From positions 1,853,518 to 1,917,517 of the forward strand of contig NZ_JACCCW010000002.1 in assembly GCF_013410065.1 (NCBI RefSeq): DNA of 64,000 nucleotides. The letters run 5' to 3'. This document shows, one piece after another, positions 11,665 to 27,148 of this stretch. The stretch is from Granulicella arctica (lineage in GTDB: Bacteria > Acidobacteriota > Terriglobia > Terriglobales > Acidobacteriaceae). The notes beneath the pieces are model-generated. The model saw nothing but the letters and a program-made list of their open reading frames with translations. It was not told the origin of the DNA and made no database searches. Within the stretch, counting starts at the first letter, position 1; every line of letters begins with the position of its first letter. A program made the position numbers and the translations under genes.

Positions 11665-12086
11665 AGTTAGATAGCCCAATGCAGTTTGGACAACCGCGCT
11701 CAGCCTCTGCGCTTACTTCGCAACCAGCCTGTAGCAGATGGAGCCATGGTCCAACTGGAAGTGGCGGGGATTCTGGCGTCCTCGAACTCCACTGTTCATA
11801 GGCCGGGTTCAAAAGCTCAAGCATGTTCTCGTACTGTACGAGCTGGGATCGACGGAAACCTACAATTACATTCTACAAATAGGTACGACACGAGTGGGTA
11901 TCGAAAGATACCCACTCGTGCGACGAAAGATACACCAATATCACCTTGATCGCAGGCTACAGTAACAACTGAGCACCCCCTTGCGGGCCTACTTTCCCGA
12001 AAAAATATCCCTGCTCTGAATGTAAGTGCAATATCTATCAGCCTCGCAAGATGTACTTGCTCGGAGAGTACCGGAAACCTCAAACG
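11665..12086. other. Intergenic region at left edge of AT-rich island
   Basis: About 420 bases with no convincing gene. Short frames on both strands have no recognisable family and no good ribosome binding site. Base composition shifts here from the GC-rich left flank to the AT-richer island. The outstanding feature is a 14-bp hairpin at 11889-11920. Confidence 0.6.
11889..11920 (+). promoter_or_regulatory. Perfect 14-bp hairpin with GAAA tetraloop
   Basis: CACGAGTGGGTATC (11889-11902) pairs perfectly with GATACCCACTCGTG (11907-11920) around a GAAA tetraloop. It lies about 165 bases upstream of the efflux operon start. No T-run follows. It could be a structured leader of the operon or a terminator for the upstream transporter. 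Confidence 0.6.
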
Positions 12087-13382
12087 ATGATTCTAAGTAA
12101 CGTTATTCAAAAACAATATACCGGCCTGTTGCGCCTGGGTATTCTGCTTCTGCCTTTTTTTGCTGGAGTGGCCTATGCGCAGTCCAGTTACACATGGGAC
12201 CAAATCAAGACCAGGTTCGAAACGGCTAATCCTGCACTGAAGGCCGATGCGAGCAATGTAGATGAGCTAAAGGCCGAAGAGATTACAGCCTATCTCCGCC
12301 CGAACCCGCAGTTCACTCTTTCAGAAGATGGAGTCCAAATCGCCCGCTATCAAGGGGTTTGGCAACCATTATCCGGCGTCCAACTACAGCCGAACTTCAG
12401 CTATCTACATGAACGTGATCATAAGCGGGAATTGCGCCTGGAGAGCGCCAAAGAAGCTACAGGCATCGGCAGATCACTACATGAGGATCTGGAGCGCAAT
12501 CTGCTTTTTAATCTGCGGTCGGCTTTCGTACAGACGCTAGAAGCCAAGGCTGTACTGGAATTGGCAAAGTCCGACCTCGAGTATTACGACAAGATTATCG
12601 AGATTAGTCATGCCCGCTATAAGGCTGGAGACCTTGCACAGATTGATCTCGATCGAATTGAGTTGCTCCGCGTGCAGTATGAGTCAGAGATTCAAACAGC
12701 AATCGTCAATCTACGGTCGCAAAAGATTGCGCTGCTACAACTACTGAATGATCGCACTGCTGTAGATCAGTTCGACGTAAATGGGCCATTCGGATTCACC
12801 GGGGACCTAAAACCACTCAATGACTTTGAACAGGTGGCGCTCGATGCACGTCCCGATCTTCGAGCCGCATTACAGTCCATCGAGCAGGCAAAGACGAATC
12901 ATAAGCTAGCGGTATCGAATGGATCGACAGACCCGACATTCGGCGCTTGGTATACGTATAACCCATCATTCAATAATCAATATGATCATCAATCGCTTGG
13001 ACTCAGCGTAAATATTCCGCTTCGCATATTCGATCGCAATCAAGGTGAGAAGAAGCGCACTCTGATCGACATCGACCGCAATCAGCAGCTAACCGATGTG
13101 ACACGGGCACAAGTCTTCAGCGATGTGGACTCGGCGTATGAGCAGGCACGAAGTAACGTCGCGCTGCTGGTATCTTATCGCGACAAATATAAAGATCAGG
13201 CAACGAGAGTACGCGATACGGTGACCTATGCCTATCAGCATGGAGGAGCTTCGCTGATGGATTTTCTCAATGCACAAAGTGACTACCGTACCGTGCAGCT
13301 GGCGTACTTGCAACTCATTGGTGCCTATCTAACGGCTGCCAGTCAATTGAATCTTGCCGTAGGGCGTGAGGTAATCCAATGA
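12087..13382 (+). CDS. TolC/CzcC-family outer membrane efflux protein
   Basis: This protein, 431 residues from ATG 12087, is the outer membrane channel of a tripartite efflux pump. A signal peptide (LLRLGILLLPFFAGVAYAQ) is followed by two TolC-type OEP repeats of long helices and strands; ARYKAGDLAQIDLDRIELLR and its counterpart YQHGGASLMDFLNAQSDYR mark the two halves. The first repeat matches CzcC-type sequences of heavy-metal pumps. I prefer 12087 over ATG 12051 because the signal peptide then starts at a normal distance. It overlaps the adaptor gene by four bases (ATGA), so the three pump genes form one operon. GC content and codon use are lower than in the preceding genes. Confidence 0.88.
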   Translation: MILSNVIQKQYTGLLRLGILLLPFFAGVAYAQSSYTWDQIKTRFETANPALKADASNVDELKAEEITAYLRPNPQFTLSEDGVQIARYQGVWQPLSGVQLQPNFSYLHERDHKRELRLESAKEATGIGRSLHEDLERNLLFNLRSAFVQTLEAKAVLELAKSDLEYYDKIIEISHARYKAGDLAQIDLDRIELLRVQYESEIQTAIVNLRSQKIALLQLLNDRTAVDQFDVNGPFGFTGDLKPLNDFEQVALDARPDLRAALQSIEQAKTNHKLAVSNGSTDPTFGAWYTYNPSFNNQYDHQSLGLSVNIPLRIFDRNQGEKKRTLIDIDRNQQLTDVTRAQVFSDVDSAYEQARSNVALLVSYRDKYKDQATRVRDTVTYAYQHGGASLMDFLNAQSDYRTVQLAYLQLIGAYLTAASQLNLAVGREVIQ

Positions 13383-14521
13383 TAAAAAAGTCCTTCTTGA
13401 ATAACTCCCTCTACCTCATCGCGTGTCTCTCGTTGACTGCATGTGAAAAAAAGTTCAACCCTACTGATGGTGCTCCACAGAAACCGCAGGTTGTTGAGAC
13501 TGGTGATATGAGCCTCGTCACCGTAGATCAACCAAACCTCTTTCCTCTAGTAACAACAGAGAAGATCGATGCACCCGATGAGTTAGTGGCTACAGGGGCG
13601 GTGAATCCTGATGTATCGATGGAGCAGCCTGTAATCTCACTTGCCAACGGCCGCGTAGTCGATATTCTGGCTCGCATCGGCGATCAGGTTCGCAAAGGAC
13701 AGTTACTCCTAAGAGTACAGAGCCCTGACGCAACCGCTGCATTTGATACCTATATCAAGGCAGATGCCGATGAAGTGTTTGCACGCAAAACATTAGTTCG
13801 TACGCAGGATCTCTATCTACATGGCGCCCTCCCACTTAGCGCCGTCGAACAAGCTGAGGATACGGAGAACGATGCAAAAGCCGATCTCGTCGCGTCGGAG
13901 GATCAACTCAAGACGTTAGGCATCGATAAAGCGCATCCATCCAGCATTGTCGATGTAAAGTCGCCGATCTCCGGCGTCATCGTGGCACAAAACGTAACCA
14001 ACGCAGCGGCAACGGGTGTCAGCTACGCGGGTAACACGGGAGCATTTACCGTAGCCGATCTATCACACATCTGGGTCATCTGTGATGTCTTCGAAAATGA
14101 CATTCACAAACTTGCGATTGGGCAAGAGGCCAAAATCTCATTGGCTGCCTATCCGGAGAAGGTATTGACTGGACGCATTAGCGAAGTCGACGCTCTGCTT
14201 GATCCCAATATCCGCACAGCAAAAGTACGTATTGAGGTTCCCAATCCCGGCCTATTGCGCCTGGGGATGTTTGTGAATGCAACTTTTTATAGCAAAGAAC
14301 AAAAGGCGCACCCTGTGGTGCCTGCATCGGCTGTTCTGCATCTGCATGATCGCGAGTGGGTCTTTATTCCGAATGGTGGAAACTCTTTCAAGCGCGTTGA
14401 AGTACGAGGTGGCCGCATGCTGGATCATACCCGACAAGAGATTTTGTCAGGCATTAATCCCGAACAACAGGTTGTTTCCAATGTTCTACAGCTCGAAGCC
14501 ACATTGGAGGCAAAGCAGTGA
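13379..14521 (+). CDS. RND efflux periplasmic adaptor lipoprotein, CzcB-like
   Basis: The membrane fusion protein of the pump, 380 residues. The N terminus is a lipoprotein signal with lipobox LTAC (Cys22), anchoring it to the inner membrane. Next come a beta-barrel/lipoyl half (VISLANGRVVDILARIGDQV, where a biotinyl-lipoyl-like turn is visible), a helical hairpin (FARKTLVRTQDLYLHGALPLS to about residue 180), the second lipoyl half (VKSPISGVIVAQNV) and barrel strands (HIWVICDVFENDI). The family couples the inner membrane pump to the outer channel. No His-rich metal-binding extension is seen, unlike some CzcB proteins. Its start overlaps the channel gene and its end overlaps the pump gene. Confidence 0.9.
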   Translation: MIKKSFLNNSLYLIACLSLTACEKKFNPTDGAPQKPQVVETGDMSLVTVDQPNLFPLVTTEKIDAPDELVATGAVNPDVSMEQPVISLANGRVVDILARIGDQVRKGQLLLRVQSPDATAAFDTYIKADADEVFARKTLVRTQDLYLHGALPLSAVEQAEDTENDAKADLVASEDQLKTLGIDKAHPSSIVDVKSPISGVIVAQNVTNAAATGVSYAGNTGAFTVADLSHIWVICDVFENDIHKLAIGQEAKISLAAYPEKVLTGRISEVDALLDPNIRTAKVRIEVPNPGLLRLGMFVNATFYSKEQKAHPVVPASAVLHLHDREWVFIPNGGNSFKRVEVRGGRMLDHTRQEILSGINPEQQVVSNVLQLEATLEAKQ

Positions 14522-17500
14522 TCCGAGCTCTCGTAGACTTCGCTCTTCGGAGTCGCTTTCTTATTCTGGCAATTGCAATTCTGCTCTTTGTCTGGGGTGC
14601 GATCTCGTTTCATAACCTCCCCGTTGATGCCTATCCTGACGTTGCGGACAACTATGTCAATGTAATTACGCAATGGCCAGGACATTCGGCTGAGGATATC
14701 GAAAAGCAGATTACTGTTCCAACTGAAATTCAGATGGCGGGAATCCCTGACCTGATGAATGTGCGCTCGTTCAGCCTGGCTGGTATATCGAGCCTCATGA
14801 TGAACTTCAATGATTCTTCCGACAATAACTGGAATCGTGAACGTGTGCTGGAACGACTCGGCATGGTCACCTTACCTGCGGGACTGGTGCCACAGCTACA
14901 GACAGATTGGAGTCCAGCAGGGCAAATCTACTGGTACACGATTGACAGCAAAAATCCAAGTATCGATGTCATGGAACAAAAATCTATTGAAGACTGGACA
15001 CTCCAGAAGCAGTTCAAGAATGTTCCGGGAATTGTTGACGTTGCCAGCTTTGGAGGCCTCACTAAGGAATATCAGATTCGTCTCAACCCAGATAAACTTG
15101 TTAGCTATGGTCTAAGCATTGGTCAGGTTGAGCAGCAGCTATCGAACAATAACGCAAATGCTGGAGGCAGCTTCATAGTTGCCGGGGCACAACAGATTAA
15201 CGTTCAGTCAGCAGGTTTGTATGAAGACGTACAACAGATTGAAAACACTCTAATCAAAACGCAGAACGGAACGCCGATCCGTGTTAAAGATATTGCCGAG
15301 GTCGACCAAGGCGCGAAGATCAGACTAGGGCAAATCTCCAAAACCTACAAAGACGTTAATGGAAGGCTGATTGATAATCCCGATGTGGTGGAAGGCGTGG
15401 TCCTATTACAAAAGGGCGGCGACGCTGATCCAGCATTGAAAGGAATTGAGGCCAAGGTTAAGGAGTTGAATGACTACATTCTTCCTAAGGGTGTGAAGGT
15501 TGTGCCATTCCTTGATCGCAGCGAGCTGATTCATCTGACGACGCATACAGTAATGCACAACCTGACTGAGGGCATCGTGCTGGTTGTCATCATTCTGATG
15601 TTGTTCCTCGGCAATGTGCGCGGCGCAATCATCGTTGCCTTGACGATTCCTTTCTCACTTCTGTTTGCCTCGATCTGTCTCGACCTCAAACATATTCCAG
15701 CGAATCTACTGTCGCTTGGGGCCCTGGACTTTGGCATGGTGGTTGATGGCGCAGTCGTCATGATCGAAAACATCGTCCGTCATCTGAATCGTCCGAATCA
15801 TGGCGCAGAGACCACGCAGGACAAGATTCGTGCCGCGGCACACGAGGTACAGCGCCCGGTATTCTATGCGATCGGCATCATTATCACCGCTTACCTTCCT
15901 ATCTTCACGTTACAAGCTGTCGAAGGTAGACTTTTCAAACCCATGGCGTGGACAGTCGCTTTTGCACTTCTGGGCGCCTTGATCTTCTCGATGATTATCG
16001 CCCCGGTTCTGGCCAGCTTTCTATTCCGTAAAGGAGCAAAAGAGTGGAAGAACCCCGTGATGGAATATCTCACGGCGACCTACCGAAAGCGGGTTGTCGA
16101 AGCTATTCATCATCGCGGTATTACCGTTGGCATCGGCGTACTCGGCCTGATTATCGCAATCTATCTTGCGTTTGGTGGCGTCATTGGTTCCGAATTTCTA
16201 CCACATCTGGATGAAGGGGCGCTCTGGGTGCGCGGTTCTCTTGCTCCATCCACGGGCCCCGAGGAGAGTTTGGCAATCTCCAATAAAGCTCGCATTATCA
16301 TGGCCAGCTATCCAGAAGTTACCGACGTTGTGGATCAGATTGGTCGCCCCGATGACGGTACAGACTGGACAGGATTTTTCGATACGGAATATAACGTCAA
16401 CCTGAAACCAAAGGAAGAGTGGCGTCCCGTCTTTCATGGAGACAAAGACGCTCTTATCGCCTCGATGAATCAGCAGTTGAAGAAGATTCCAGGTGTGATC
16501 TGGGGTTTCTCGCAGCCAATCGAAGACAACATGGAAGAGGCAGTCAGTGGGGTGAAAGGTGAGCTGTCGGTCAAAATCTATGGCGACGACTTCAGGACGC
16601 TCGAGCAAAAGGGCAATGAGGTAGTCAGCGTCATGAGCAAGGTCAACGGAGTAAAGGATCTTGGACTATTCCGTATTATTGGCCAACCAAACCTTACCTT
16701 CACCGTAGATCGTCAAGCTGCAGCACGTTTTGGTATCAATGTTGCAGATATTCAAGACGCTATTCAGACTGCTGTTGGTGGCAGTATTCTCAGCGAGGTA
16801 CTAAAAGGAGAAGCACAATACGATCTTGTGTTGCGTTATCAGAAGCCATATCGCGACACCAAGGAAGCCATTACGAATGTCCGTTTGTTGTCTCCATCCG
16901 GCGAACGTGTTTCATTGGATCAGCTGACAACAATTGGGACGACAGATGGTGCGGAAGAGATCTATCGTGAAGGCGAACAGCGGTACATCGCAGTGAAGTA
17001 CAGTGTGCGTGATCGTGATCTTGGCAGTACAGTCGAAGAAGCAATTGACAAAGTCAATAAGCAGGTCCCCTTAGACAAGGGGTATCACTTTGTCTGGGCA
17101 GGCGAGTACCAAAGCAAGCAACGGGCTGATAAAAGGCTCGCAATCATTGTACCAATTACTGTCCTCTTGATCTTCATCATTCTGTACATGATGTTCAAGT
17201 CGTTCAAGTGGGCTACATTGATCCTGCTCAACGTAGCAATGGCACGTGTGGGTGGATTGCTGGCGCTTTTAGTAACGCATACTAACATTAGCGTTTCGTC
17301 CAGCGTGGGGTTCCTGGCACTATTTGGCGTGTCGGTTCAAACCGGCGTCATCATGCTCGAATACATGAATCAACTCCGCGTACGTGGTCACTCAATCGAA
17401 GAATCAGCGGTAGAAGGAGCTGTACTCAGGTTGCGCCCCATCATGATGACGATGCTCGTCGCCACATTGGGACTATTGCCTGCCGCTACATCACATGGTA

Positions 17501-17655
17501 TTGGTTCTGACTCCCAGCGCCCCTTTGCCATCGTGATCGTCGGCGGGCTCATTGCGGATCTGGTAATGAGTATCTTTTTATTGCCCACACTATATGTATG
17601 GATCTCCGGAGAGAACGACGTCTTACCAAAACCAGAACCGGAGTTTGAGATCTGA
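14518..17655 (+). CDS. CzcA-type heavy-metal RND pump
   Basis: This 1045-residue inner membrane proton-driven pump has the RND layout: a span, a large periplasmic loop, six spans, a second loop, and five spans. The fourth-span motif LDFGMVVDGAVVMIENIVRH places D404, D410 and E417 where CzcA of Cupriavidus has its proton-relay acids. That pattern is typical of the divalent cation (Zn/Co/Cd/Ni) branch, while CusA-type copper/silver pumps have a different motif. The porter domains read normally (FGGLTKEYQIRLNPDKL; RIIGQPNLTFTVDRQAAARFG). Translation starts at GTG 14518 with GGAGG upstream, overlapping the adaptor stop as GTGA. The true substrate is not determined by sequence alone. Confidence 0.93.
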   Translation: MIRALVDFALRSRFLILAIAILLFVWGAISFHNLPVDAYPDVADNYVNVITQWPGHSAEDIEKQITVPTEIQMAGIPDLMNVRSFSLAGISSLMMNFNDSSDNNWNRERVLERLGMVTLPAGLVPQLQTDWSPAGQIYWYTIDSKNPSIDVMEQKSIEDWTLQKQFKNVPGIVDVASFGGLTKEYQIRLNPDKLVSYGLSIGQVEQQLSNNNANAGGSFIVAGAQQINVQSAGLYEDVQQIENTLIKTQNGTPIRVKDIAEVDQGAKIRLGQISKTYKDVNGRLIDNPDVVEGVVLLQKGGDADPALKGIEAKVKELNDYILPKGVKVVPFLDRSELIHLTTHTVMHNLTEGIVLVVIILMLFLGNVRGAIIVALTIPFSLLFASICLDLKHIPANLLSLGALDFGMVVDGAVVMIENIVRHLNRPNHGAETTQDKIRAAAHEVQRPVFYAIGIIITAYLPIFTLQAVEGRLFKPMAWTVAFALLGALIFSMIIAPVLASFLFRKGAKEWKNPVMEYLTATYRKRVVEAIHHRGITVGIGVLGLIIAIYLAFGGVIGSEFLPHLDEGALWVRGSLAPSTGPEESLAISNKARIIMASYPEVTDVVDQIGRPDDGTDWTGFFDTEYNVNLKPKEEWRPVFHGDKDALIASMNQQLKKIPGVIWGFSQPIEDNMEEAVSGVKGELSVKIYGDDFRTLEQKGNEVVSVMSKVNGVKDLGLFRIIGQPNLTFTVDRQAAARFGINVADIQDAIQTAVGGSILSEVLKGEAQYDLVLRYQKPYRDTKEAITNVRLLSPSGERVSLDQLTTIGTTDGAEEIYREGEQRYIAVKYSVRDRDLGSTVEEAIDKVNKQVPLDKGYHFVWAGEYQSKQRADKRLAIIVPITVLLIFIILYMMFKSFKWATLILLNVAMARVGGLLALLVTHTNISVSSSVGFLALFGVSVQTGVIMLEYMNQLRVRGHSIEESAVEGAVLRLRPIMMTMLVATLGLLPAATSHGIGSDSQRPFAIVIVGGLIADLVMSIFLLPTLYVWISGENDVLPKPEPEFEI

Positions 17656-17761
17656 TTCACCCCCTAATGCAATCACAGATATGCATGAAAAAAATGTAAC
17701 AACATGAAGGAGGAGACTCGAAGTTAGTGCTCGTCAGGTTTTACTGGCTCTGATTTTCCCT

Positions 17762-17778
17762 AGTCGTAATGTACGACT
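17762..17778. promoter_or_regulatory. Operator-like inverted repeat AGTCGTA-ATG-TACGACT
   Basis: A perfect 7-bp inverted repeat with a 3-base centre, 127 bases upstream of the Wzi-family start. The half-site TACGAC recurs in the palindrome ATACGACGTAT at 20713-20723 between the divergent two-component genes. A binding site for a dimeric regulator such as the nearby LuxR-type response regulator is plausible. Confidence 0.45.
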
Positions 17779-17844
17779 CATATACGCATGCAAGGGACGT
17801 CCCTAAGACCATCGATTCTGCCTCCAAAATGAGCAGATCACTTG

Positions 17845-17873
17845 CTGTCTAGACAGTGGAAATATCTAGACAG
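17845..17873. promoter_or_regulatory. Palindrome plus direct repeat before Wzi gene
   Basis: CTGTCTAGACAG (17845-17856) is a perfect 12-bp palindrome, and its right part TCTAGACAG is repeated at 17865-17873, 17 bases further on. It ends 31 bases before the ATG at 17905, so a bound protein would block a transcript or translation start. Confidence 0.45.
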
Positions 17874-17904
17874 AATGGATGGCTATTCAATATTTGAGGT
17901 AAAG

Positions 17905-19659
17905 ATGAAGCTCATCCGATGGGTATACTATTTCGCACCTCTCTGCGTACTATTACCTAATTCCTTTGCGCAGAAGCCTACCCAATGCGTAGACGATTTT
18001 GTTATCGATAGCCCTTACGTAGATCCCTTGGGCTCAACCTATGTCCCGATAGACAGCTGGATGTACCCTGCTATCGATCGCTTGCATAGCCTGGGTTATA
18101 TCAATACAGCTTATTCCGGTATTCGTCCTTGGACTCGATTGAGCATAGCGCATATGCTCGAAGAGTCCTACAGTAAAATCAATGACGATAGTCGTAATGA
18201 TGAGGCATGTTCGATTTATCGCATTTTGCAAAAGGAACTCACTCCCGACGTGGAGGATTTAAATGAACCACACGAACAGCATACAGAACTGGAGAGTACT
18301 TACACTCGCATCCTTGGCATATCAGGCACACCACTGCGTGACAGCTTCCACCTCGGGCAAACAATTACTAACGATTATGGCCGACCTTACGAGCAGGGGT
18401 TCAACCCAATAAGCGGGTTCAGCACCAGGAGCCAAGCGGGACGATTTGCGTTGTATTTTAGAGGAGAGTACCAACATGCTCCAAGCGCTCCTGGCTATTC
18501 TCAGTCTCTAGCTAATGATCTTGCAACTATCGACGCTGCGCCAATTTCAAGCAATCCGAATCAAGCTACTATTCCTTCAGGTCCGATTAGCCCAGCAAAT
18601 AATTTTCGCATTGTGGAAGCAAATGTTTCCTATTTTTTGCTAAATCACGAATTTTCCTTTGGCAAAAACGATCACTGGATGGGCCCTGCTAGAGGCGGAA
18701 ATTTTGCCTGGAGCAATGACGCTGAAAATATATATGCCTTTCAGATCGATCGCATCGAACCACTCTATGTTCCTCTAGTTTCACGTTTTACAGGTTCATT
18801 TCGATACCAGTTTTTCGTCGGAAGCCTGAAAGGACACACAGACCCTAATGATCCCTGGATACACGTTGAGAAGATAAGTTTTAAACCGACAGCTAATCTA
18901 GAAATGGGTTTTGAACGTTCCACTATCTGGGGTGGAGAGGGACATGTTCCAATCACATTGCATACCTTCTTGAAAAGTTTTTTCAGCTTTCAAAATGTGC
19001 CCGCATCCGAGAAGTTTTCACGAAACGACCCTGGAGCCCGTTTTGGCACCTTTGACTTTACGTACAGGTTGCCTTTTGTGCGCAACTGGCTGACCTTATA
19101 TACAGACTCGCTTGTCCATGACGACGTAAGCCCCATCGATGCTCCTCGACATGCCGGTGTCAGACCTGGTATTTATCTAGCACGGTTTCCACACCTCGAG
19201 CACCTTGATCTTCGCGTAGAAGCCGTAAGCACGGACCCTCCGACCGGACGTAGCAGCGGCGGGAATTACCTCTACACCGAATTCGTGCAAAAGCAGGGAT
19301 ACACTAATAAAGGGTTCATTCTCGGAGACGCGATCGGGCGCGAATCTAAAGGCGGTCAGTCATGGTTGACCTATCATCTGTCACCTAGCGAAGAGGTGCA
19401 GTTCTCTTATCGCAATGCGAAAGCTGCGAAGGATTTTATCCCAGGAGGCACAACGCAGAATGTCTTTCGGGTCTCTACTATAAAGCGCTTCAACAAAGAC
19501 GTTGAATTGCGTGGCTGGATACAGCACGAAGCATGGAAAGCTCCGATTTATAAAACGGGTAAAAATACGGATACCAGCGTTGCTGTCCAACTTACCTGGT
19601 ACTTGCATGGAAAATTTTCTAAGAAACGCTTAATGCAGGAGCTACAAACTAAGCCCTGA
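17905..19659 (+). CDS. Capsule assembly Wzi family protein
   Basis: This 584-residue outer membrane protein starts with a signal peptide (KLIRWVYYFAPLCVLLPNSFAQ). The order of features is that of Wzi-family proteins: STYVPIDSWMYPAIDRLHSLG, IRPWTRLSIAHMLEES, then many amphipathic beta strands with FSFGKNDHWMGPARGGNFAW in the middle. Wzi itself is an 18-strand barrel that attaches capsule polysaccharide to the cell surface; many acidobacterial relatives have no capsule genes nearby and their role is open. ATG 17905 was chosen because GAGGT precedes it and the signal peptide follows; an upstream in-frame TTG at 17842 overlaps a palindrome instead. It is last in the island's plus-strand run and is followed by a terminator-like hairpin. 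Confidence 0.85.
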   Translation: MKLIRWVYYFAPLCVLLPNSFAQKPTQCVDDFVIDSPYVDPLGSTYVPIDSWMYPAIDRLHSLGYINTAYSGIRPWTRLSIAHMLEESYSKINDDSRNDEACSIYRILQKELTPDVEDLNEPHEQHTELESTYTRILGISGTPLRDSFHLGQTITNDYGRPYEQGFNPISGFSTRSQAGRFALYFRGEYQHAPSAPGYSQSLANDLATIDAAPISSNPNQATIPSGPISPANNFRIVEANVSYFLLNHEFSFGKNDHWMGPARGGNFAWSNDAENIYAFQIDRIEPLYVPLVSRFTGSFRYQFFVGSLKGHTDPNDPWIHVEKISFKPTANLEMGFERSTIWGGEGHVPITLHTFLKSFFSFQNVPASEKFSRNDPGARFGTFDFTYRLPFVRNWLTLYTDSLVHDDVSPIDAPRHAGVRPGIYLARFPHLEHLDLRVEAVSTDPPTGRSSGGNYLYTEFVQKQGYTNKGFILGDAIGRESKGGQSWLTYHLSPSEEVQFSYRNAKAAKDFIPGGTTQNVFRVSTIKRFNKDVELRGWIQHEAWKAPIYKTGKNTDTSVAVQLTWYLHGKFSKKRLMQELQTKP

Positions 19660-19726
19660 TAGATATTTTAAGCAAGATGGAATTATTTAGACCATATAGC
19701 TCCATGCCTTTCACCCAGAGGAGTCC

Positions 19727-19754
19727 ACCCTTTGGAGATCAGCCTCCAAAGGGT
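19727..19754 (+). terminator. 11-bp hairpin after Wzi gene
   Basis: ACCCTTTGGAG (19727-19737) pairs with CTCCAAAGGGT (19744-19754) around a six-base loop. It lies between two convergent genes, so it may end transcripts from both sides. T-runs on either side are short. Confidence 0.6.
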
Positions 19755-19881
19755 AACGAACGGATAGAACGTGCGAATCTTTCAAGATACTGATTCAAGT
19801 GATGTATGCAAAAAAGTGAGATGAAAGTCTCTAGTAAATACTCACGGAGCGAATTCATGGCTTCGGATGAGTGAATTTCAT

Positions 19882-20559
19882 TCAGTGGTCGGTTACACCA
19901 GTCTCACCATCCAGCCAATCATCAGAGTGCTGCTCCAAAGCAAGGCGGACTAATTGACTTCGGGTACGAACCCCCGTTTTCGCAAAGAGTTGCTGCAGAG
20001 CTCCTTTCACCCCGCTTTCAGACAGCTGAAGCTCTACTGCTATCTGCTTATTCGAGAGTCCCTCGCAGACTGCCCGCACTACTGCCAGCTCGCGGGCGCT
20101 GAGAGACGGGCGAATTCGCGTTTCTTCGGCTCTACGATTTACGCCATCAATCAAAGGTTTGATTGCCCGCGAATCGAGCCAGATCTGGCCGCTAATGATT
20201 TTATGAATTGCCTCAACGAGCTCTGCAGGAGGAGCCTGTTTAAGAAAAATCCCCGATGCTCCCTGCTCTAGAACCTTCAAGACTGTCGCATTGGGCATGC
20301 CAGCCGTTACCATTAAGATGTGGCCTTTAAAGCCCTTTGCCTTGGCCTCATCTAAAAAGAGCGTCCCGTACTCTCCGTCCAGGTCATAGTCCAGCAGAAC
20401 AACATCTATTACTTCGCCTTCGAGGAGACGCAAAGCCTCTCGAATATGGCCGCAGCTCCGCACCGCTATGAAATCGGGCTCAGCCTGAAGTAATCGGCCA
20501 ACACCTTCACGAAAAAGAGCATGATCGTCAATAAGCAGAATCCGAATTCCCTGATTCAT
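19882..20559 (-). CDS. NarL/LuxR-family response regulator
   Basis: A 225-residue two-component regulator. The receiver domain has the acidic pair in LLIDDHALFREG (D11, D12), the phospho-acceptor in VVLLDYDLDG (D57) and the conserved Lys in FLKQAPP. The C-terminal LuxR-type helix-turn-helix begins LSARELAVVRAVCEG and continues SNKQIAVELQLSESGVKGAL. The start ATG 20559 (MNQGIRILLIDD) gives a standard receiver; an in-frame ATG at 20676 would add 39 residues unlike any known domain. It is divergent from a histidine kinase, which is its likely partner. The recurring TACGAC palindromes nearby are candidate targets. Targets could include the pump and Wzi genes of the same island, which is inference. 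Confidence 0.88.
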   Translation of the reverse strand: MNQGIRILLIDDHALFREGVGRLLQAEPDFIAVRSCGHIREALRLLEGEVIDVVLLDYDLDGEYGTLFLDEAKAKGFKGHILMVTAGMPNATVLKVLEQGASGIFLKQAPPAELVEAIHKIISGQIWLDSRAIKPLIDGVNRRAEETRIRPSLSARELAVVRAVCEGLSNKQIAVELQLSESGVKGALQQLFAKTGVRTRSQLVRLALEQHSDDWLDGETGVTDH

Positions 20560-20949
20560 ATCAACACTGTCGGACGATTTTCTTAACGTAGAAAACCACC
20601 TGGCTTGTCCCTTTGTCTGGAATACATGAGAATCTTCAGCATCATGGGTAAAACCGATCATCCAAAAGATATTCACTTGCCTATTTCTGAGTGTAAGCGA
20701 AAGTATCTAGCTATACGACGTATTTTTGTCAGACTAATAGGCTATGCATGAGCCCGGTATTTAGGCCGTATAGTGTGACCTTTAGCCTTAAAGAAAAATC
20801 TGGATAATAGTCGCCTTCTACTTCATCGATTGATCCATCGGAAGATGGATCAATCGGCACGCTGGCGGATCTTTTTCCGAGTGAGCGTCGGATGCAGAAA
20901 GTGCATTACAGTAGGGAATACATCACACATAGAAGGCAGTGACGCACGC
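20560..20949. other. Divergent regulatory region of two-component pair
   Basis: About 390 bases between the response regulator and kinase starts. It contains an odd palindrome ATACGACGTAT (20713-20723) and a perfect 13-bp hairpin (20827-20856). In-frame upstream start codons exist for both genes, but the added residues resemble nothing and the hairpin lies inside the kinase extension, which argues that this is untranslated leader. Confidence 0.55.
20827..20856 (+). promoter_or_regulatory. Perfect 13-bp hairpin with GGAA loop
   Basis: CGATTGATCCATC (20827-20839) pairs with GATGGATCAATCG (20844-20856) around GGAA, a GNRA-type tetraloop. It sits about 95 bases before the kinase ATG at 20950, within its probable leader. 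It is also a perfect inverted repeat at DNA level and so could bind a dimeric protein. Confidence 0.6.
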
Positions 20950-22326
20950 ATGGATATTCTTTCGATTTACACGCGAACCAACAGAAATCTCTTGTTGCTT
21001 GCCGCTGCAACTCTGGTTGTAACGATCGCTTTTACAGATTGGTCCACCAAACCCTACATCTCGATCGGTTTCCTCTATCTGTTTCCGATCATGCTAATTA
21101 GCGGAATTCTTGCTCGGTGGCAGATCATGAGCGCGGCGCTCGTCTGTTCCGTTTTGCAAGAAGCCTTCAGCAATCTTCCATCGAGTGAAGCAATTGTGCG
21201 GCTGATTCTTTCATCTGCAGGATTTGTAGGAACGGGATTTCTTGTCTTCGAATTAGTACGAAACCGCCGTATCGTCATGCAACATCTTGAAGAGGTTGAG
21301 GGACAAGTACGGTTGCGGAAAGACGCGGAGGAACAACTCCGCGTCTTAGTAGAAAGTAGCCCTGCTGCTATTCTCACAGTCGACTCAAAGGGAGAAATAC
21401 TACTTGCGAACCTGGCGGCACAAGAAATATTGGCTCCTGGACAAGGAGAGCTAAAATCTCAAGCAATTCAGAAGTACCTTCCTGCCTTGCTGATCGCCGC
21501 CCGCTCCAGGAAAGCTCACCCTTTCAGGACGACCATGCAGTGTTGCGGACAAAGGGCAGATGGTGAAACCTTCCTTGCCGGAATATGGTTTTCAACGTAC
21601 ACCACACAATCAGGTAACCGGCTGGCTGCGATCATAGTTGATCTCTCTGAAGAACTTGTCCATCGCGAAGATCTAAGTTTGGACTACTTATTGAAAAATG
21701 CGCGAATTCTGATGAGTGCTGTTTCTCATGAAATACGTAATCTTTCAGGAACAGCTCGAGTCATGTACGAAAATCTAGACCGATTAGGCATATTGTGTGG
21801 AAACGAGGACTTCGAAGCACTAGGAACGCTAATTCACGGCATGGAGAGACTGTCCGATCTCGATATTGTTCGTTCATCCGACAAGGGAAGGCAGGCTGTA
21901 GAGTTAGGACCGGTGCTAGACGAGGTCCGGATTCTGATTGAGTCAGCATGCCGGGAGTCTGAGGTTGAACTTTTTTGGAAGATCGAAGGAACTCAATCCG
22001 TTGTCTGGGCGGATCGATACGGACTTATTCAGGTCTTTCTCAATCTTGCCAAGAATAGTCTTCGGGCCATGGAAGATTGCAGCGATAGACATCTAACAGT
22101 GGAGGCTACAAGGGATAACGAGTATTTCATCGTTCGCATTCACGACACTGGGCCTGGCATAGCAAATTCACAGGATCTTTTCCGGCCATTCCAACAGGGG
22201 GCTGATTCCAGCGGTCTTGGCTTGTATGTTTCACAATCAATTATGAAGAGTTTTGGTGGGGACCTGGCGTTTGAACCTCGAGATAGAGGGTGCTGTTTCG
22301 CCATCACGATACAAGTGGCTGCCTAG
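20950..22326 (+). CDS. Membrane sensor histidine kinase with PAS domain
   Basis: A 458-residue kinase. Three hydrophobic segments in the first 100 residues (LLLLAAATLVVTIAF, ISIGFLYLFPIMLISGIL and LILSSAGFVGTGFLVF) form the membrane sensor. A coiled linker and a PAS domain follow (VESSPAAILTVDSKGEILLAN). The phospho-acceptor is H260 in AVSHEIRNLSG. The ATPase domain shows the N box NLAKNSLRAMED, DTGPGIA and GLGLYVSQSIMKSFGGD. The dimerisation region departs from the usual HisKA pattern after H-E-I-R-N (LSGTARVMYENLDRLG). It is divergent from a LuxR-type response regulator at 19882-20559, the likely partner. ATG 20950 is chosen over 20830 because the sensor then starts normally. Confidence 0.87.
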   Translation: MDILSIYTRTNRNLLLLAAATLVVTIAFTDWSTKPYISIGFLYLFPIMLISGILARWQIMSAALVCSVLQEAFSNLPSSEAIVRLILSSAGFVGTGFLVFELVRNRRIVMQHLEEVEGQVRLRKDAEEQLRVLVESSPAAILTVDSKGEILLANLAAQEILAPGQGELKSQAIQKYLPALLIAARSRKAHPFRTTMQCCGQRADGETFLAGIWFSTYTTQSGNRLAAIIVDLSEELVHREDLSLDYLLKNARILMSAVSHEIRNLSGTARVMYENLDRLGILCGNEDFEALGTLIHGMERLSDLDIVRSSDKGRQAVELGPVLDEVRILIESACRESEVELFWKIEGTQSVVWADRYGLIQVFLNLAKNSLRAMEDCSDRHLTVEATRDNEYFIVRIHDTGPGIANSQDLFRPFQQGADSSGLGLYVSQSIMKSFGGDLAFEPRDRGCCFAITIQVAA

Positions 22327-22410: not shown

Positions 22411-23649
22411 TCAATGCCGTTTTAGCTTCCGTCGGAGTGAGCGGCTCCACCACATGATGAGTCCAGTAACGAGCAGCACTGTAGGGAAAAGGCCGAGAAG
22501 AAACCAAAGCACTCGGGAGACCACGCCGGCAAAACGGCCGAAGTGAACAGCGTACACATAAAGCACAGCCCGCATAACCAGAGGCAAACTGCGCGAATCC
22601 AGCTGTTGCATAGGACTTGCATCAAAGGGATTGATATAGACCCGAAACGGCTGTGCATAGGGCGCGGAATGCGGATAGTACGCGATCGCCTCGAACGAGT
22701 TACCCGGTTCGGAAGGAAGCGCCAGATAGTCGACATAAGCGCCTTGAGGAAGAGAGTCAGCGGCCGCGCGCCAGGCATCCTGAACCGTGATCAACTCCCC
22801 GCCTAGCGGTCGGAGAGGTAGCGTCGGAGCGGAATACCAAGCCCGAATTACGTCTGGGTCCGTGTGCGTCACAAAAGCTAACCCTCGCAGTATTGGTTGG
22901 GGAAAAACAAAGAAGATGCCGGTGGCAATGACCGCGATCAGTGCGGGGTTAGACCAGAAACCACCGGTCGCGTGAAGGTCCCAATTGAACCGCCTCCAGT
23001 TGCTCCGACCGCCATGAAGGCTCCTTCGCAATCCGTGAATACGCAACGCGGAGATCGCTCGGCTCACTCCGGGCCACCAAAGGATCCAGCCTGTCAGAGC
23101 AACGCCGAGGAAGGCTATAGCGAGCACTCCATTGACGACATATCCTCGCTCCCCTGCCAGTAAATAGTAGTGAAGATTCGCAGCCAGCCCCATCACTCCG
23201 GCATACCTCGATCTCGCCCCAAGCAAAGCACCCGAGTATGGATCGAGGTATACCAGCAGCTGATCCGGCGTGAAGGAGTGCGGAGCGAAGACTGCATGGC
23301 CAGGACGCGGCATCATATAGAGGACTACCGGTTGGACAGGCATCGTCGACGGACTCGAGGCAAGCTGTTCAAAGCCACGCGGCTGCCAGTCAGGAAGAGC
23401 ACTCGTAGCAGTATGCAGCAACTGATCAAGCGTCGGCCGCGCCGAAGATGTTGCGCCCGGATGCAGGACATACAGCTTAGGACGCAACGCACGTTCGATC
23501 TCGGAGCGGAAGACAAGCGCTGAACCACTCAGACCAATCAGCGCCATATAGAGTCCAAGGCCGACGCCACACCACAGGTGAATCTGAAACGCCACGCGCC
23601 GCGCCAGGGTTTGACGTGGCTTGTACAACAGACGATGCCATAGCAACAC
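22411..23649 (-). CDS. PepSY-associated transmembrane protein (reductase-like)
   Basis: A 412-residue inner membrane protein of the PepSY_TM family. Four main spans are seen: the opening FQIHLWCGVGLGLYMALIGLSGSALVF, VVNGVLAIAFLGVALTGWILWW, LIAVIATGIFFVFP, and the C-terminal VLWFLLGLFPTVLLVTGLIMWW. Conserved His (IHLW, NLHYYL, DLHATGGFW, VHFGRF) are the type that bind heme in siderophore reductases such as FsrB-like or FpvG-related proteins. The gene follows the TonB receptor by four bases, a pairing seen in many siderophore systems where the PepSY protein is thought to reduce the imported ferric complex. Here the metal is uncertain because of the neighbouring Cys-rich sigma factor. GC content returns to the host level. 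Confidence 0.87.
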   Translation of the reverse strand: MLLWHRLLYKPRQTLARRVAFQIHLWCGVGLGLYMALIGLSGSALVFRSEIERALRPKLYVLHPGATSSARPTLDQLLHTATSALPDWQPRGFEQLASSPSTMPVQPVVLYMMPRPGHAVFAPHSFTPDQLLVYLDPYSGALLGARSRYAGVMGLAANLHYYLLAGERGYVVNGVLAIAFLGVALTGWILWWPGVSRAISALRIHGLRRSLHGGRSNWRRFNWDLHATGGFWSNPALIAVIATGIFFVFPQPILRGLAFVTHTDPDVIRAWYSAPTLPLRPLGGELITVQDAWRAAADSLPQGAYVDYLALPSEPGNSFEAIAYYPHSAPYAQPFRVYINPFDASPMQQLDSRSLPLVMRAVLYVYAVHFGRFAGVVSRVLWFLLGLFPTVLLVTGLIMWWSRSLRRKLKRH

Positions 23650-23653
23650 CGCT

Positions 23654-26185
23654 CTACTCCTGCTTCCAGGGCTTGAGCAGAGACGCGAAACGATACGTCA
23701 AATTGCCGTTCACCGTGCGCCGGTAACCGTAATTGCAAGACGAACTTCCATAGCAATAGGCCACATAGACCTTGTCTAGAAGGTTTTTCCCATCGATACC
23801 TACCCGAAGATTGCCAACAGCATAGTGCGCTTCGGCGTCGAAGAGCGTGTGGCTATCAACATAAAAATCCGTCGACTGCCCAGTGAAGACAACTCCAGGA
23901 GTCTTGCCGGTAAAGCGCGCTCCCATGCCAATGCCGGGACCGTGTTGAGGGTCGTAGTCCAGCCACAGCGACGCCTGGTTCGCCGGAACCGTGACCGGTC
24001 GAACACCCACCGCACCATAGTACGGCTTACTGTAGATCACCTGTTGGTGGTTGAAGGTCGCAATCGTGTTGAGATTATGCGAGAGCGACGCATGAGCTTC
24101 CAGCTCGATGCCTCGCGAACGCTGCTCCGCCGACTGATCCGTAATAAGCGGATTGACCGGATTGCTTGTCTGGAGATTCTTTTCCGTGACCTGGAACAGA
24201 GAAGCAGTCACAAACGCGTTGACGCCATTCGGAGCGTACTTCAGGCCAACCTCGTACTGGTCGCCAGTATCGGACTTGAACGCCTTGGACGTCGAAGGAT
24301 TGATCCCGAAGATCGGATTGAACGAGGTCGAATAGCTGAAGTACGGAGCCACGCCAATATCGAAGTGATAGAGCACACCCGCACGCCCTGTAAACTTCGA
24401 CGGGTTGCTGTCGATATGCTGCTGCGCCAGATTATCGAAGATGTGTTCCGGAGCCCAATCCTCACGGCCGCTCAGCACGAAGTTCAAGTGGCCATGGGTG
24501 ATCTGGTCCTGCGCATAAACGCCATGCTGCTGGAGCGTACCAATCGTATTGGTGGTGGAGTAACCAGGGCTGGGAACCGCGGCTCCATACACAGGATTGA
24601 AGATGTCGATATTAGGACCGTTGGCCGGATCGCCGGGCACGCCGTAGACATCCGATGGACCATAGCCGAGCTTTACGTTCGAACCCTGATGTTGATAGTT
24701 GTAGCCAAAGAGCATGGTCTGCGACCACTTCCCGGTGCGATAGTTCCCCTGGAACTGCTGATCGACGGCATACTGACCATTATTCTGATTTCCTAGAATG
24801 GCCGATCGAGTAAGCGTGTGCGTGCAGGCTGAAGCGTTCGGGTTCGTCGCGCAGATCGTTGCGGTCTGGAGAAATCCCGTGCCATACAAACCGATATACT
24901 GCGGCAGCCCAAGGCGGAGATAACGGAAATTATTGCGCAGCGTCCAGTGCTCAGAGAGCTGATGCTGTAACTGCGTCGCGCTAAAATATTCGACCTTATG
25001 GAAGTTGTCGTAGTCCGGTTCAGAGTCGAAGAAGCTGGTCCCAATCGGTCCGTTGATGTTCGGTGCAATCTTGCCGCCCGCCAGAGTCATACCCTGCGCT
25101 GGAAGAAATCCCCCAACCGATCCAGTTCGAAGATCGAGATAGTTCCCCAACACAACCAGCGAGGTCCGATCGCTCGGCTTCCACAGCAGCGAAGGCGCAA
25201 TGTAATCCTGATCGTCGCGTGCGAACTCAACCTGTGACTTCGACCCACGCGCCAGACCGTTCACGCGATAGAAAAGCGTCTTGGAACCAAAGAGCGGACC
25301 GGAGACATCGACCATTCCCTGATACCGGTGGAAGTTGCCTCCTTCAAAGCGAATCTCCCCCTGCGGCGTCTCCGCAGGCCGCTTCGACGTCAGATTCACA
25401 AGCCCTCCCGGCTCCGTCTGTCCATACAACACGCTGGCCGGTCCCTTGAGAATGTCCACCTGCTGCAACGAGAAAGGATTCGAGGTATAGGCCGCGTCTG
25501 CGCCGGTAATCTTCGGAACCGCCAACCCATCCAGAAAGAGCCCATCGAAGGTCATTCCAAACCCTCGGATGAAAAACCAGTCGACCCGGGTATCCGTACC
25601 ATACGGCTCAGCATCCACTCCTGCCGAGTAGCGCAGCGTGTCGGCAATCGTCTGGGTGTCGCGCGCCTGCATCTGCGCCATCGTAACTGCGGTGATCGAC
25701 TGCGGTGTGTCGATCAGCGGTGTCGAGGTCTTCGTCCCGGAGTCGACCGTCGAAGTAACATAATCCGGACCAGCATTCACCTCCACCGACTGCCCCTCAG
25801 CGGCGATGCCCAATCGAAGATCGACCGTGTTCGAACCACTCTGTACGACAAGCTCTCGAACCTGAGGAAGAAATCCGGTCGATTCAGCATCGAGGGTATA
25901 GCTACCGCCCGGAACACGCAGAATGTAGTGCCCAGCGCCATCGGAAAGAGTCTGCCGATAGAAGCTGCCGCACTCAACGCGAAGCGCCGCCCCCGGCACG
26001 ATGGCTCCGGTTGGATCAAAGACAGTCCCACTGAGTGATTGGAGCGAAGCTCCCGGCGCCGGCGGCTGGCAGCTCCGAGAGCTCTCCGCCGAACTGGTGG
26101 AGCCTTCATGGGAGCGCGCAAAACCGTAGGAAGCAGAGAAGCAAAGATACAGAACGACGCTAAGACGGATCGGAACCAAACGCAT
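23654..26185 (-). CDS. TonB-dependent siderophore-type receptor
   Basis: An 843-residue outer membrane receptor. After the signal peptide comes a carboxypeptidase-regulatory-like beta-sandwich (about 48-130: LSGTVFDPTGAIVPGAALRV, then DGAGHYILRVPGGSYTL), common in acidobacterial and Bacteroidetes receptors. Then come a plug domain (TPQSITAVTMAQMQARD, WFFIRGFGMTFDGLFLDG, VDILKGPASVLYGQTEPGG) and a beta-barrel ending YRFASLLKPW. The plug sequence is that of ferric siderophore receptors of the FhuA/FpvA kind. It is cotranscribed with the PepSY protein and preceded by a good sigma-70-type promoter overlapped by paired repeats. A substrate other than ferric siderophore, for instance another metal chelate, is possible given the sigma factor upstream. 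Confidence 0.92.
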   Translation of the reverse strand: MRLVPIRLSVVLYLCFSASYGFARSHEGSTSSAESSRSCQPPAPGASLQSLSGTVFDPTGAIVPGAALRVECGSFYRQTLSDGAGHYILRVPGGSYTLDAESTGFLPQVRELVVQSGSNTVDLRLGIAAEGQSVEVNAGPDYVTSTVDSGTKTSTPLIDTPQSITAVTMAQMQARDTQTIADTLRYSAGVDAEPYGTDTRVDWFFIRGFGMTFDGLFLDGLAVPKITGADAAYTSNPFSLQQVDILKGPASVLYGQTEPGGLVNLTSKRPAETPQGEIRFEGGNFHRYQGMVDVSGPLFGSKTLFYRVNGLARGSKSQVEFARDDQDYIAPSLLWKPSDRTSLVVLGNYLDLRTGSVGGFLPAQGMTLAGGKIAPNINGPIGTSFFDSEPDYDNFHKVEYFSATQLQHQLSEHWTLRNNFRYLRLGLPQYIGLYGTGFLQTATICATNPNASACTHTLTRSAILGNQNNGQYAVDQQFQGNYRTGKWSQTMLFGYNYQHQGSNVKLGYGPSDVYGVPGDPANGPNIDIFNPVYGAAVPSPGYSTTNTIGTLQQHGVYAQDQITHGHLNFVLSGREDWAPEHIFDNLAQQHIDSNPSKFTGRAGVLYHFDIGVAPYFSYSTSFNPIFGINPSTSKAFKSDTGDQYEVGLKYAPNGVNAFVTASLFQVTEKNLQTSNPVNPLITDQSAEQRSRGIELEAHASLSHNLNTIATFNHQQVIYSKPYYGAVGVRPVTVPANQASLWLDYDPQHGPGIGMGARFTGKTPGVVFTGQSTDFYVDSHTLFDAEAHYAVGNLRVGIDGKNLLDKVYVAYCYGSSSCNYGYRRTVNGNLTYRFASLLKPWKQE

Positions 26186-26206
26186 TGAAACCTTTCGGAC
26201 TAGTTA

Positions 26207-26246
26207 AGTCCTATTTAGATATACGACATAATCAGTCCTATATCAA
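26207..26246 (-). promoter_or_regulatory. Promoter of TonB receptor with paired repeats
   Basis: On the minus strand, TTGATA (26241-26246) and TATATC (26218-26223) are separated by exactly 17 bases, a good sigma-70 type promoter ending about 30 bases before the receptor ATG. The octamer ATAGGACT occurs twice on the minus strand (26234-26241 and 26207-26214), once abutting the -35 box and once just past the -10 box. That placement suits a repressor. It does not match a classic Fur box. Confidence 0.55.
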
Positions 26247-26282
26247 GCGCACCAAACTCCAACTTTTCGAGGGTCAATCAAA

Positions 26283-26322
26283 ACGGGCGGAGCGCCTAAT
26301 CTTCAGGCCGCTCTACCCGTTG
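26283..26322 (-). terminator. Imperfect GC-rich hairpin between sigma gene and receptor
   Basis: Arms beginning AACGGG (26283) and ending CCCGTT (26322) pair with one mismatch, one wobble and one bulge around AATCTTC. On the minus strand it lies just after the sigma factor stop and is followed by TTTGATT, so it probably ends that transcript and leaves the receptor to its own promoter. Confidence 0.6.
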
Positions 26323-26339
26323 CTTTTGCTGTTAACTGA

Positions 26340-26894
26340 CTAAACTCGTACGGCCACAGTCGCTCGGCAGGTGCAGTCGAGGCACCCATGCGTGGCGCAA
26401 GTACCGCAGCAGCGAATGAGCTGTTTGCGCAACGCGGCGCGTGCGCGATGGGCCCGAACAGCAGCATTACCCGGAGTAATTCCTTCAGAATGAGCGTAAC
26501 TGGAAAGGGTCACTTCTCCGAGATCAACCTCGCGCAGCAGTCGCGCATAGGCAGGCGTAAGGAGATCGAGCGCACCCGCAATGCACTGGCATGAGGTTTC
26601 GTGAAGCAAGGGATCAGGGCTGGTCTCCGTCTCCAGTTCGTGAGCCCAGCGTTCGAGAGCCGCTCCTTCGGTCGTTCGTCGCCGGTAGTGATCGATAACC
26701 GCGTTCCGGAGGATGCGATAAAACCACGCGACAGCGGATTCGTCCTCACGTAGATCACTACCCGACTCAAGAGCACGCAAGTAGGCGGTTTGCAGAATGT
26801 CCTCTGCGACAGCGCGTTCATGGACGCGGCGCTGGACAAAGCCGAGAAACTGTCGGCGAAGGTCGAGCAGCGAGTTGAGCATGGTCTCTGACAT
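26340..26894 (-). CDS. ECF sigma factor with cysteine-rich C-terminal tail
   Basis: This 184-residue extracytoplasmic-function sigma factor has region 2 (LDLRRQFLGFVQRRVHERAVAEDILQ begins it; YLRALESG; AVAWFYRILRNAVIDHYRRR, the core and -10 recognition part) and region 4 (LLTPAYARLLREVDLGEVTLSSYAHSEG with a helix-turn-helix after it). The C terminus adds six cysteines and a histidine, C162, C163, C166, H169, C171, C174 and C176, in CCGTCATHGCLDCTC. A Cys-rich tail on an ECF factor is the hallmark of CorE-type sigma factors, which sense copper or cadmium/zinc directly without an anti-sigma factor. None is seen here either. ATG 26894 gives a standard length; longer frames add Arg-rich non-homologous sequence. 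It lies 67 bases after the CxC peptide gene. Confidence 0.87.
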   Translation of the reverse strand: MSETMLNSLLDLRRQFLGFVQRRVHERAVAEDILQTAYLRALESGSDLREDESAVAWFYRILRNAVIDHYRRRTTEGAALERWAHELETETSPDPLLHETSCQCIAGALDLLTPAYARLLREVDLGEVTLSSYAHSEGITPGNAAVRAHRARAALRKQLIRCCGTCATHGCLDCTCRATVAVRV

Positions 26895-26961
26895 AAAAAT
26901 AGCTCTGCGGATAGGAACGTCAACTCCCACCCGCAGATATTTGGATGAGTGGAAGAGTACC

Positions 26962-27060
26962 TTAGTCGCTGTTCGGGCAGTTGCAACCCGGACAGTCGCA
27001 GTCAGGACCGCAGCCACACGCCGGTCCACAGGGGCAAATCTTCGTTTCAATCGTTTGCAT
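26962..27060 (-). CDS. 32-residue CxC-repeat, metallothionein-like peptide
   Basis: This very small gene encodes 32 residues with eight cysteines arranged as four CxC pairs: CPC (9-11), CGC (15-17), CDC (21-23) and CNC (26-28), mostly at a six-residue period with GPx between them. The pattern suggests a thiolate cluster that binds soft metals such as Cu(I), Zn or Cd, like a metallothionein, though no known family was recognised. A strong ribosome binding site (GAGGAG, about seven bases before the ATG at 27060) supports expression. It is directly upstream of the Cys-tailed ECF sigma gene on the same strand, suggesting an operon and a shared metal theme. No export signal is present, so it should act in the cytoplasm. 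Confidence 0.75.
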   Translation of the reverse strand: MQTIETKICPCGPACGCGPDCDCPGCNCPNSD

Positions 27061-27148
27061 ATTCTTCTCCTCGAACGCCCATTGTTGCGTTCGAAAGGGC
27101 TGACGCAGCAGGAGAAGAAACATTACACCCCGAGCGAAATTTCTCTGA

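Follow-up and report, generated by a model that had tools for sequence, protein, structure and literature searches.

A CorE-like sigma factor and a mini-metallothionein-like CxC peptide in a putative, probably copper-responsive operon of Granulicella arctica

A 64,000-nucleotide (nt) stretch of the Granulicella arctica genome (4.3 Mb in three contigs; the whole stretch is hereafter the window) encodes an extracytoplasmic function (ECF) sigma factor directly behind a very short cysteine-rich peptide, and the two genes probably form a self-amplifying metal-stress operon in which a CorE-like sigma factor, most likely responsive to copper, has a mini-metallothionein as its output; the identity of the metal, its binding and the feedback are the parts of this reading that we infer. 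Transcribed from the minus strand, the locus runs from a promoter through the peptide gene, a hairpin, the sigma gene and a second hairpin to genes for a TonB-dependent receptor and a PepSY protein. A first-pass annotation of this DNA had described four co-oriented minus-strand genes, and these are present within 4.65 kb (22411-27060), as are its 32-residue peptide with eight cysteines in four CxC pairs, whose stop lies 67 nt before the sigma ATG, and a sigma tail with one histidine and six cysteines (Cys 162, 163, 166, 171, 174 and 176). Absent from that annotation were a CxC pair in the sigma linker, the hairpin between the peptide and sigma genes, and, between the sigma and TonB genes, a gap of 154 nt that contains a strong hairpin.

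The sigma factor (184 aa; 26340-26894, minus strand) was characterized by Pfam, NCBIfam and alignment: TIGR02937 places it in the ECF superfamily above cut-off and PF04542 (sigma region 2) also matches above cut-off, while PF08281 (sigma4) falls below its own. Across 26 aligned sequences (that of the window and 25 relatives), the linker CxC (C102 and C104, between sigma2 and sigma4) is invariant, and this pair is a signature of CorE-like sigma factors (PMC8999054). In the same alignment, four tail cysteines (C163, C166, C174 and C176) never vary and C171 hardly does, giving in the window the spacing C-x2-C-x4-C-x2-C-x-C, identical to that of CorE, for which residues 181, 184, 189, 192 and 194 are named and 189 is the main residue for copper activation (PMC3107203); the window counterpart of CorE C189 is C171. 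A scan of seven genes at the locus found no anti-sigma factor, and no genome-wide search for one was made. Tail spacing, linker CxC and the lack of a linked anti-sigma factor at the locus thus bear out the CorE type proposed by the first-pass annotation, and by its sequence the sigma factor is CorE-like (former ECF44). When 299 genomes of the class were searched, the family's full-length members had E values of 1e-24 or better and no other ECF did better than 5e-16, with a few family fragments scoring below the full-length members. The nearest relatives among the best 80 of at least 365 candidates are L040, from Granulicella, and L039, from an Acidobacteriaceae genome.

The peptide (P0002; 26962-27060, minus strand), with 8 cysteines in 32 residues and no aromatic residue, is mini-metallothionein-like in composition, and it recurs. 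We pooled loci from the best 80 of at least 365 confirmed candidates, 56 regions from the class genomes (a further family match, G270:C29, is not among them) and the window, yielding 118 distinct sigma proteins. A cysteine-rich open reading frame (ORF) lies directly upstream of the sigma gene at 41 of the 118 loci, whereas control stretches of 415 nt held 21 such frames in 2,419, so the peptide stands next to the sigma gene more often than by chance; a cysteine-rich peptide elsewhere in the locus was seen at a further 21. The first figure derives from a script count of 42, from which L153 (a spurious ORF antisense to a divergent peptide) and L113 (a locus lacking a CorE-type promoter and having a different tail) were removed and to which L128, where automatic scoring had misplaced the sigma start, was added by hand; the 21 were chosen by reading neighbourhoods, without a score. 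With the 55 remaining loci the three classes cover 117 of 118, L113 belonging to none. The 56 class regions alone comprise 28 with an upstream peptide, 10 with a peptide elsewhere, 11 with a copper gene, 6 with neither and 1 of another type, L113 and its copy L168 being kept separate. Upstream peptides (40 measured) span 21-37 aa and end 3-214 nt before the sigma gene; those at the other 21 loci span 28-55 aa and come from Bryobacterales and other Acidobacteriota, six Nitrospirota genomes and one Myxococcales metagenome-assembled genome (MAG). Around eight other ECF loci of the window genome, taken as a control, there was no promoter motif of the kind described below and one qualifying cysteine-rich ORF within about 3.2 kb.

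Upstream of the peptide lies a CorE-type promoter, TGTAAT-N16-CGTC (27102-27127, minus strand), the sole N16 site in the window. Its geometry is that of the peptide genes at large: TGTAA[TGC]-N16-CGT precedes 40 of the 41 tested (the 42 script loci minus L153, hence with L113 and without L128), and although spacers of 14-18 were allowed, all 40 measured 16, against 13 matches in 7,616 control windows. Within 3 kb of the 77 sigma genes without an upstream peptide, the N16 motif has 40 occurrences on the sigma strand and 26 on the opposite one, where any other spacer length between 11 and 21 gives 0-5 per strand, and there the N16 motif precedes copper P-type ATPases, HMA proteins, oxidases, cupredoxin-like proteins or cysteine-rich peptides. 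The Myxococcus xanthus locus L072 carries motif sites before an HMA gene and others; an HMA gene is among those regulated by CorE (PMC3107203), and tail spacing and neighbours suggest that L072 is the corE locus itself. Recovery of the pairing did not depend on specifying either protein: a pattern made up solely of promoter and ribosome-binding-site letters, run against the 299 genomes, returned 29 sites (8 for the reversed control pattern, by hand count), of which 24 fell in the 50 genomes that encode a CorE-like sigma factor and 5 in the other 249. Fisher values for such counts take no account of kinship. Twenty-one of the 24 precede a cysteine-rich ORF, as does a further one (L212) only via a later start in another frame; the last two precede an ATPase (L221) and a 55-aa protein with 5 cysteines (L207). 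None of the 5 sites in genomes without a CorE-like sigma factor precedes a cysteine-rich ORF, 3 of them having no start codon in the scanned stretch. The window's own site is outside the 29 because its ribosome-binding site deviates from the search pattern. At L212 (genome G131) the first start codon opens a frame without the cysteine pattern, which its close relative L213 has intact; the frame may have shifted recently, or the sequence may be faulty.

Between the peptide and sigma genes lies a hairpin (26904-26937, minus strand; z -3.7), terminator-like in a terminator scan. The corresponding stretch scored below z -1.5 at 35 of 37 loci tested (mean -4.0; L113, L136 and L153 were excluded, and the intergenic stretches of L130 and L144 were too short), compared with 13 of 126 random control stretches (mean -0.16), even though the hairpin sequences differ among loci. 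We infer that it holds sigma output below peptide output, for which the possible routes would be mRNA stability, partial termination or a masked sigma start site. A possible hairpin in the 5' untranslated region, directly upstream of the ribosome-binding site (27061-27100, minus strand; z -1.85), was also noted in the window; such a hairpin as a general feature was dropped, since only 16 of 39 loci scored below z -1.5.

A short ORF directly before the sigma gene with a conserved hairpin between the two might also be a cis-acting leader, a cysteine-codon attenuator that sets sigma translation and whose product has no role. We regard this as very unlikely, and it is already disfavoured by peptide genes that do not stand directly before sigma: in genome G026 the peptide gene and its intact promoter lie about 130 kb from the sigma gene, so that the peptide there is not a leader of sigma; at L121 the peptide is 1.4 kb upstream; and at 17 of the 21 loci with a peptide elsewhere (hand count) it is divergent from sigma. 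The peptides also appear to be conserved as proteins, with a ratio of non-synonymous to synonymous change (pN/pS) of 0.36, a rough value pooled over 15 hand-picked, overlapping pairs; retained cysteine codons show synonymous changes, whereas the L045/L046 pair alone has no synonymous changes and a high ratio. That the peptide would buffer the sensed metal, as the first-pass annotation had suggested, fits a conserved partner behind a CorE-type promoter.

Copper genes and peptides exclude one another across the loci. None of the 41 loci with an upstream peptide and none of the 21 with a peptide elsewhere has a copper gene within 6 kb of the sigma gene, against 40 of the 55 remaining, and among loci with 5.5 kb available on both sides the counts are 0/38, 0/13 and 28/39; the seven copper-gene queries were taken from peptide-less loci, so distant copper genes at peptide loci could escape them. 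On the sigma tree (from which L174 was left out), a clade of seven Acidobacteria copper-type loci (support 100/99) joins nine others, eight of which have an upstream peptide (97/87). Given this mixed grouping, outputs seem to have been exchanged between copper genes and the peptide in the course of sigma evolution as reconstructed from sequence. Genomes G175 and G163 each hold one sigma copy of the peptide type and one of the copper type.

An alternative interpretation is that the operon is as described while the metal is cadmium or zinc, as for CorE2, or another thiophilic ion. CxC thiolates bind cadmium and zinc too, and the window tail has the extra cysteine C162. CorE-like proteins with differing tails, moreover, sense differing metals (PMC8999054, PMC9023288). 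We nevertheless consider this unlikely because C171 keeps the equivalent of the main copper-activation residue of CorE (PMC3107203), and because no cysteine directly follows C166, the window having Cys-Ala where CorE2 has a Cys pair whose second member is said to set metal specificity (PMC9023288). At peptide-less loci, too, the N16 promoter leads to copper-type genes, and histidine makes up only 0.8% of the peptides.

We therefore favour copper as the signal of the two-gene operon, for which the following course can be proposed. Excess metal, most likely copper, would bind the cysteine tail and linker CxC and render the sigma factor active, by analogy with CorE; the active holoenzyme would then use TGTAAT-N16-CGTC before the peptide, a promoter identified by comparison whose use by the window's sigma factor is presumed. 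The transcript would yield peptide and, past the conserved, computed hairpin, a presumably smaller amount of sigma factor. Peptide thiolates would hold the metal and protect the cell, and by stripping metal from the sigma factor the peptide would end the response.

Several observations weigh against this interpretation and keep our confidence short of firm. In the window genome TGTAAK-N16-CGTC has 9 sites against 18 control matches and the CGTT variant 5 against 17; the motif is not enriched genome-wide there, and the promoter claim consequently rests on comparison across genomes. L113 is the sole locus without the motif among the 41 peptide loci; at 15 of the 55 peptide-less loci no copper gene was seen within 6 kb with the seven queries; and four related sigma genes that form a clade (L055, L114, L143 and L163) have no peptide, copper gene or motif within the sequence available. 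Known metallothionein models likewise gave no match in Pfam or NCBIfam for seven peptides at E values up to 1. A wider regulon in the window genome was considered and dropped, because motif sites are fewer than in the control, the other eight CGTC sites do not resemble the consensus beyond the core (by eye) and lie inside open frames of 216-853 codons, and none lies close to either of the two P-type ATPase genes of the genome.

More tentatively, and with a little less than even confidence, we propose that a CorE-like circuit of this kind is widespread and unannotated in Acidobacteriota and Nitrospirota, with single loci in Myxococcota and Verrucomicrobiota; that its output is swapped between copper export or oxidation genes and ultra-short metallothioneins; and that, where transcript is shared, the hairpin would fix the peptide in excess and the peptide would reset the sensor by taking its metal. 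The Nitrospirota loci L061, L077, L078, L096, L098 and L100 have a divergent 53-aa cysteine-rich peptide together with a CorE-type promoter; a protein search with the L061 peptide returned a single, little informative relative. In a Verrucomicrobia MAG (L085), an upstream peptide accompanies a sigma factor that the tree places with one from Acidobacteriaceae, so either transfer or a binning error is possible. L048, in a record titled Comamonas, has a sigma factor that sits among Myxococcus sequences, and the record is perhaps mislabelled. Plasmid-borne sigma relatives occur in 53 records, and the annotations of three of these show no peptide beside the sigma gene, small ORFs and promoters not having been scanned there.

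The two genes beyond the sigma factor are probably neighbours outside the unit. The receptor (23654-26185, minus strand) matches the TonB-dependent siderophore receptor model TIGR01783 above cut-off and the FetA, FoxA and FhuA chains; the PepSY_TM protein (22411-23649, minus strand), 4 nt away as the first-pass annotation had reported, matches PF03929 and chain 7abw, named PepSY domain-containing protein, which we take to be FoxB, and is probably a ferric-siderophore reductase. Siderophore-receptor homology and a PepSY_TM partner, the marks of FoxA/FoxB-type uptake, are thus both present. Between the sigma and TonB genes stands a terminator-like hairpin (26280-26321, minus strand) that is absent from the simple terminator scan and lies in a stable region (26255-26345; z -4.25). 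The first-pass annotation had joined all four genes into one unit, in which a single sigma factor would couple metal storage in the peptide to uptake through receptor and reductase, and their common orientation within 4.65 kb and possible read-through past the hairpin would allow for this. The check that it had proposed, co-occurrence of the peptide, speaks for the peptide and against the receptor: no relatives of the receptor (E < 1e-20) or of the PepSY protein (E < 1e-8) were found at the 117 other sigma loci, the search covering up to about 8 kb per side and in some cases less. With the pair also behind a stable hairpin, lacking a CorE-type site of its own and of ferric-siderophore type, we consider the uptake-storage unit highly improbable and regard the two genes, from their sequence context, as probably a separate ferric-siderophore cassette adjoining the operon. 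The receptor's best match in 30 related genomes is 39% identical.

Other features flank this pair. A sigma70-like promoter seen by eye before the TonB gene was dropped, being absent from a consensus scan. Just upstream of that gene, an imperfect dyad (26244-26218) and a short palindrome (26211-26197), both seen by eye, are possible operator sites of another regulator. The stretch 12001-22000, which ends beside the PepSY gene, has a G+C content of 47-49%, compared with 55-65% elsewhere in the window, and a flat GC skew; this is a hint of a possible acquired island or a late arrival of the pair. No tRNA gene was found in the window.

The juxtaposition of a cysteine-rich peptide, an ECF sigma factor and a TonB receptor also bears a superficial likeness to a methanobactin-type chelator locus, in which the cysteines of the peptide would be modified; MbnA precursors are of similar length (22-40 aa; PMC7558416), and the genome has one MbnB-family gene (PF05114). 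That gene, however, lies 0.42 Mb from the peptide, no such enzyme turned up among the seven locus genes scanned (MbnC was not searched), and the receptor is not conserved across sigma loci, all of which leaves this interpretation with next to no probability. This gene of the MbnB/TglH/ChrH family (L198; G000:C2:1455612-1459072) has an ECF sigma match about 2.5 kb away, possibly marking a second metal-peptide locus.

If correct, the peptide-sigma operon means that CorE-like sigma factors have two kinds of output, and for cysteine-rich peptides of 21-55 aa, seven of which were tested and had no Pfam or NCBIfam match, it supplies a regulator and a promoter as well as a function that can be tested. 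With a promoter geometry fixed across phyla, likely targets of CorE-like sigma factors would be readable from DNA, and the sigma tree would allow the swap between metal export and sequestration to be traced. In its smallest form the circuit fits sensor, promoter and, if the reading is true, metal sponge into less than 900 bases, and would be a compact metal-response module. A literature search found no paper tying CorE-like sigma factors to metallothionein-like peptides; the CorE2 and ECF re-classification papers, where mention is possible, were outside that search. The word metallothionein is absent from the main text of the CorE paper (PMC3107203) and of a review on non-canonical ECFs.

Among known systems, the neighbouring genes resemble FoxA/FoxB-type uptake, the receptor through its matches to chains of FoxA and FhuA, the PepSY protein through its match to 7abw. 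The metallothionein of Neurospora is likewise short and built on CxC pairs, a likeness shared by the window peptide, whereas no sequence model of a known kind of copper metallothionein matches the window-type peptides tested. MymT, the mycobacterial copper metallothionein, is also very small and cysteine-rich (PMC7558416), but it is under RicR (PMC10141476), while the partner of the window peptide is a CorE-like sigma factor. OrbS of Burkholderia cenocepacia resembles the window's sigma factor in being an ECF sigma with a metal-binding cysteine tail, and serves siderophore genes, the type of the window's neighbours; it differs in that Fe(II) switches it off and in its cysteine spacing (PMC9023288). 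CorE2 of M. xanthus is likewise a cysteine-tailed ECF without an anti-sigma factor, but responds to cadmium and zinc and has a Cys pair in its tail where the window has Cys-Ala (PMC8999054, PMC9023288). Closest is CorE of M. xanthus, with the same tail spacing, a linker CxC and no linked anti-sigma factor seen (PMC3107203), and with the N16 motif common to the window and to L072, the presumed corE locus. The two differ in output: under CorE stand an oxidase, ATPases and an HMA protein, whereas in the window a 32-aa cysteine-rich peptide on the sigma factor's own transcript is the one credible target that emerged.

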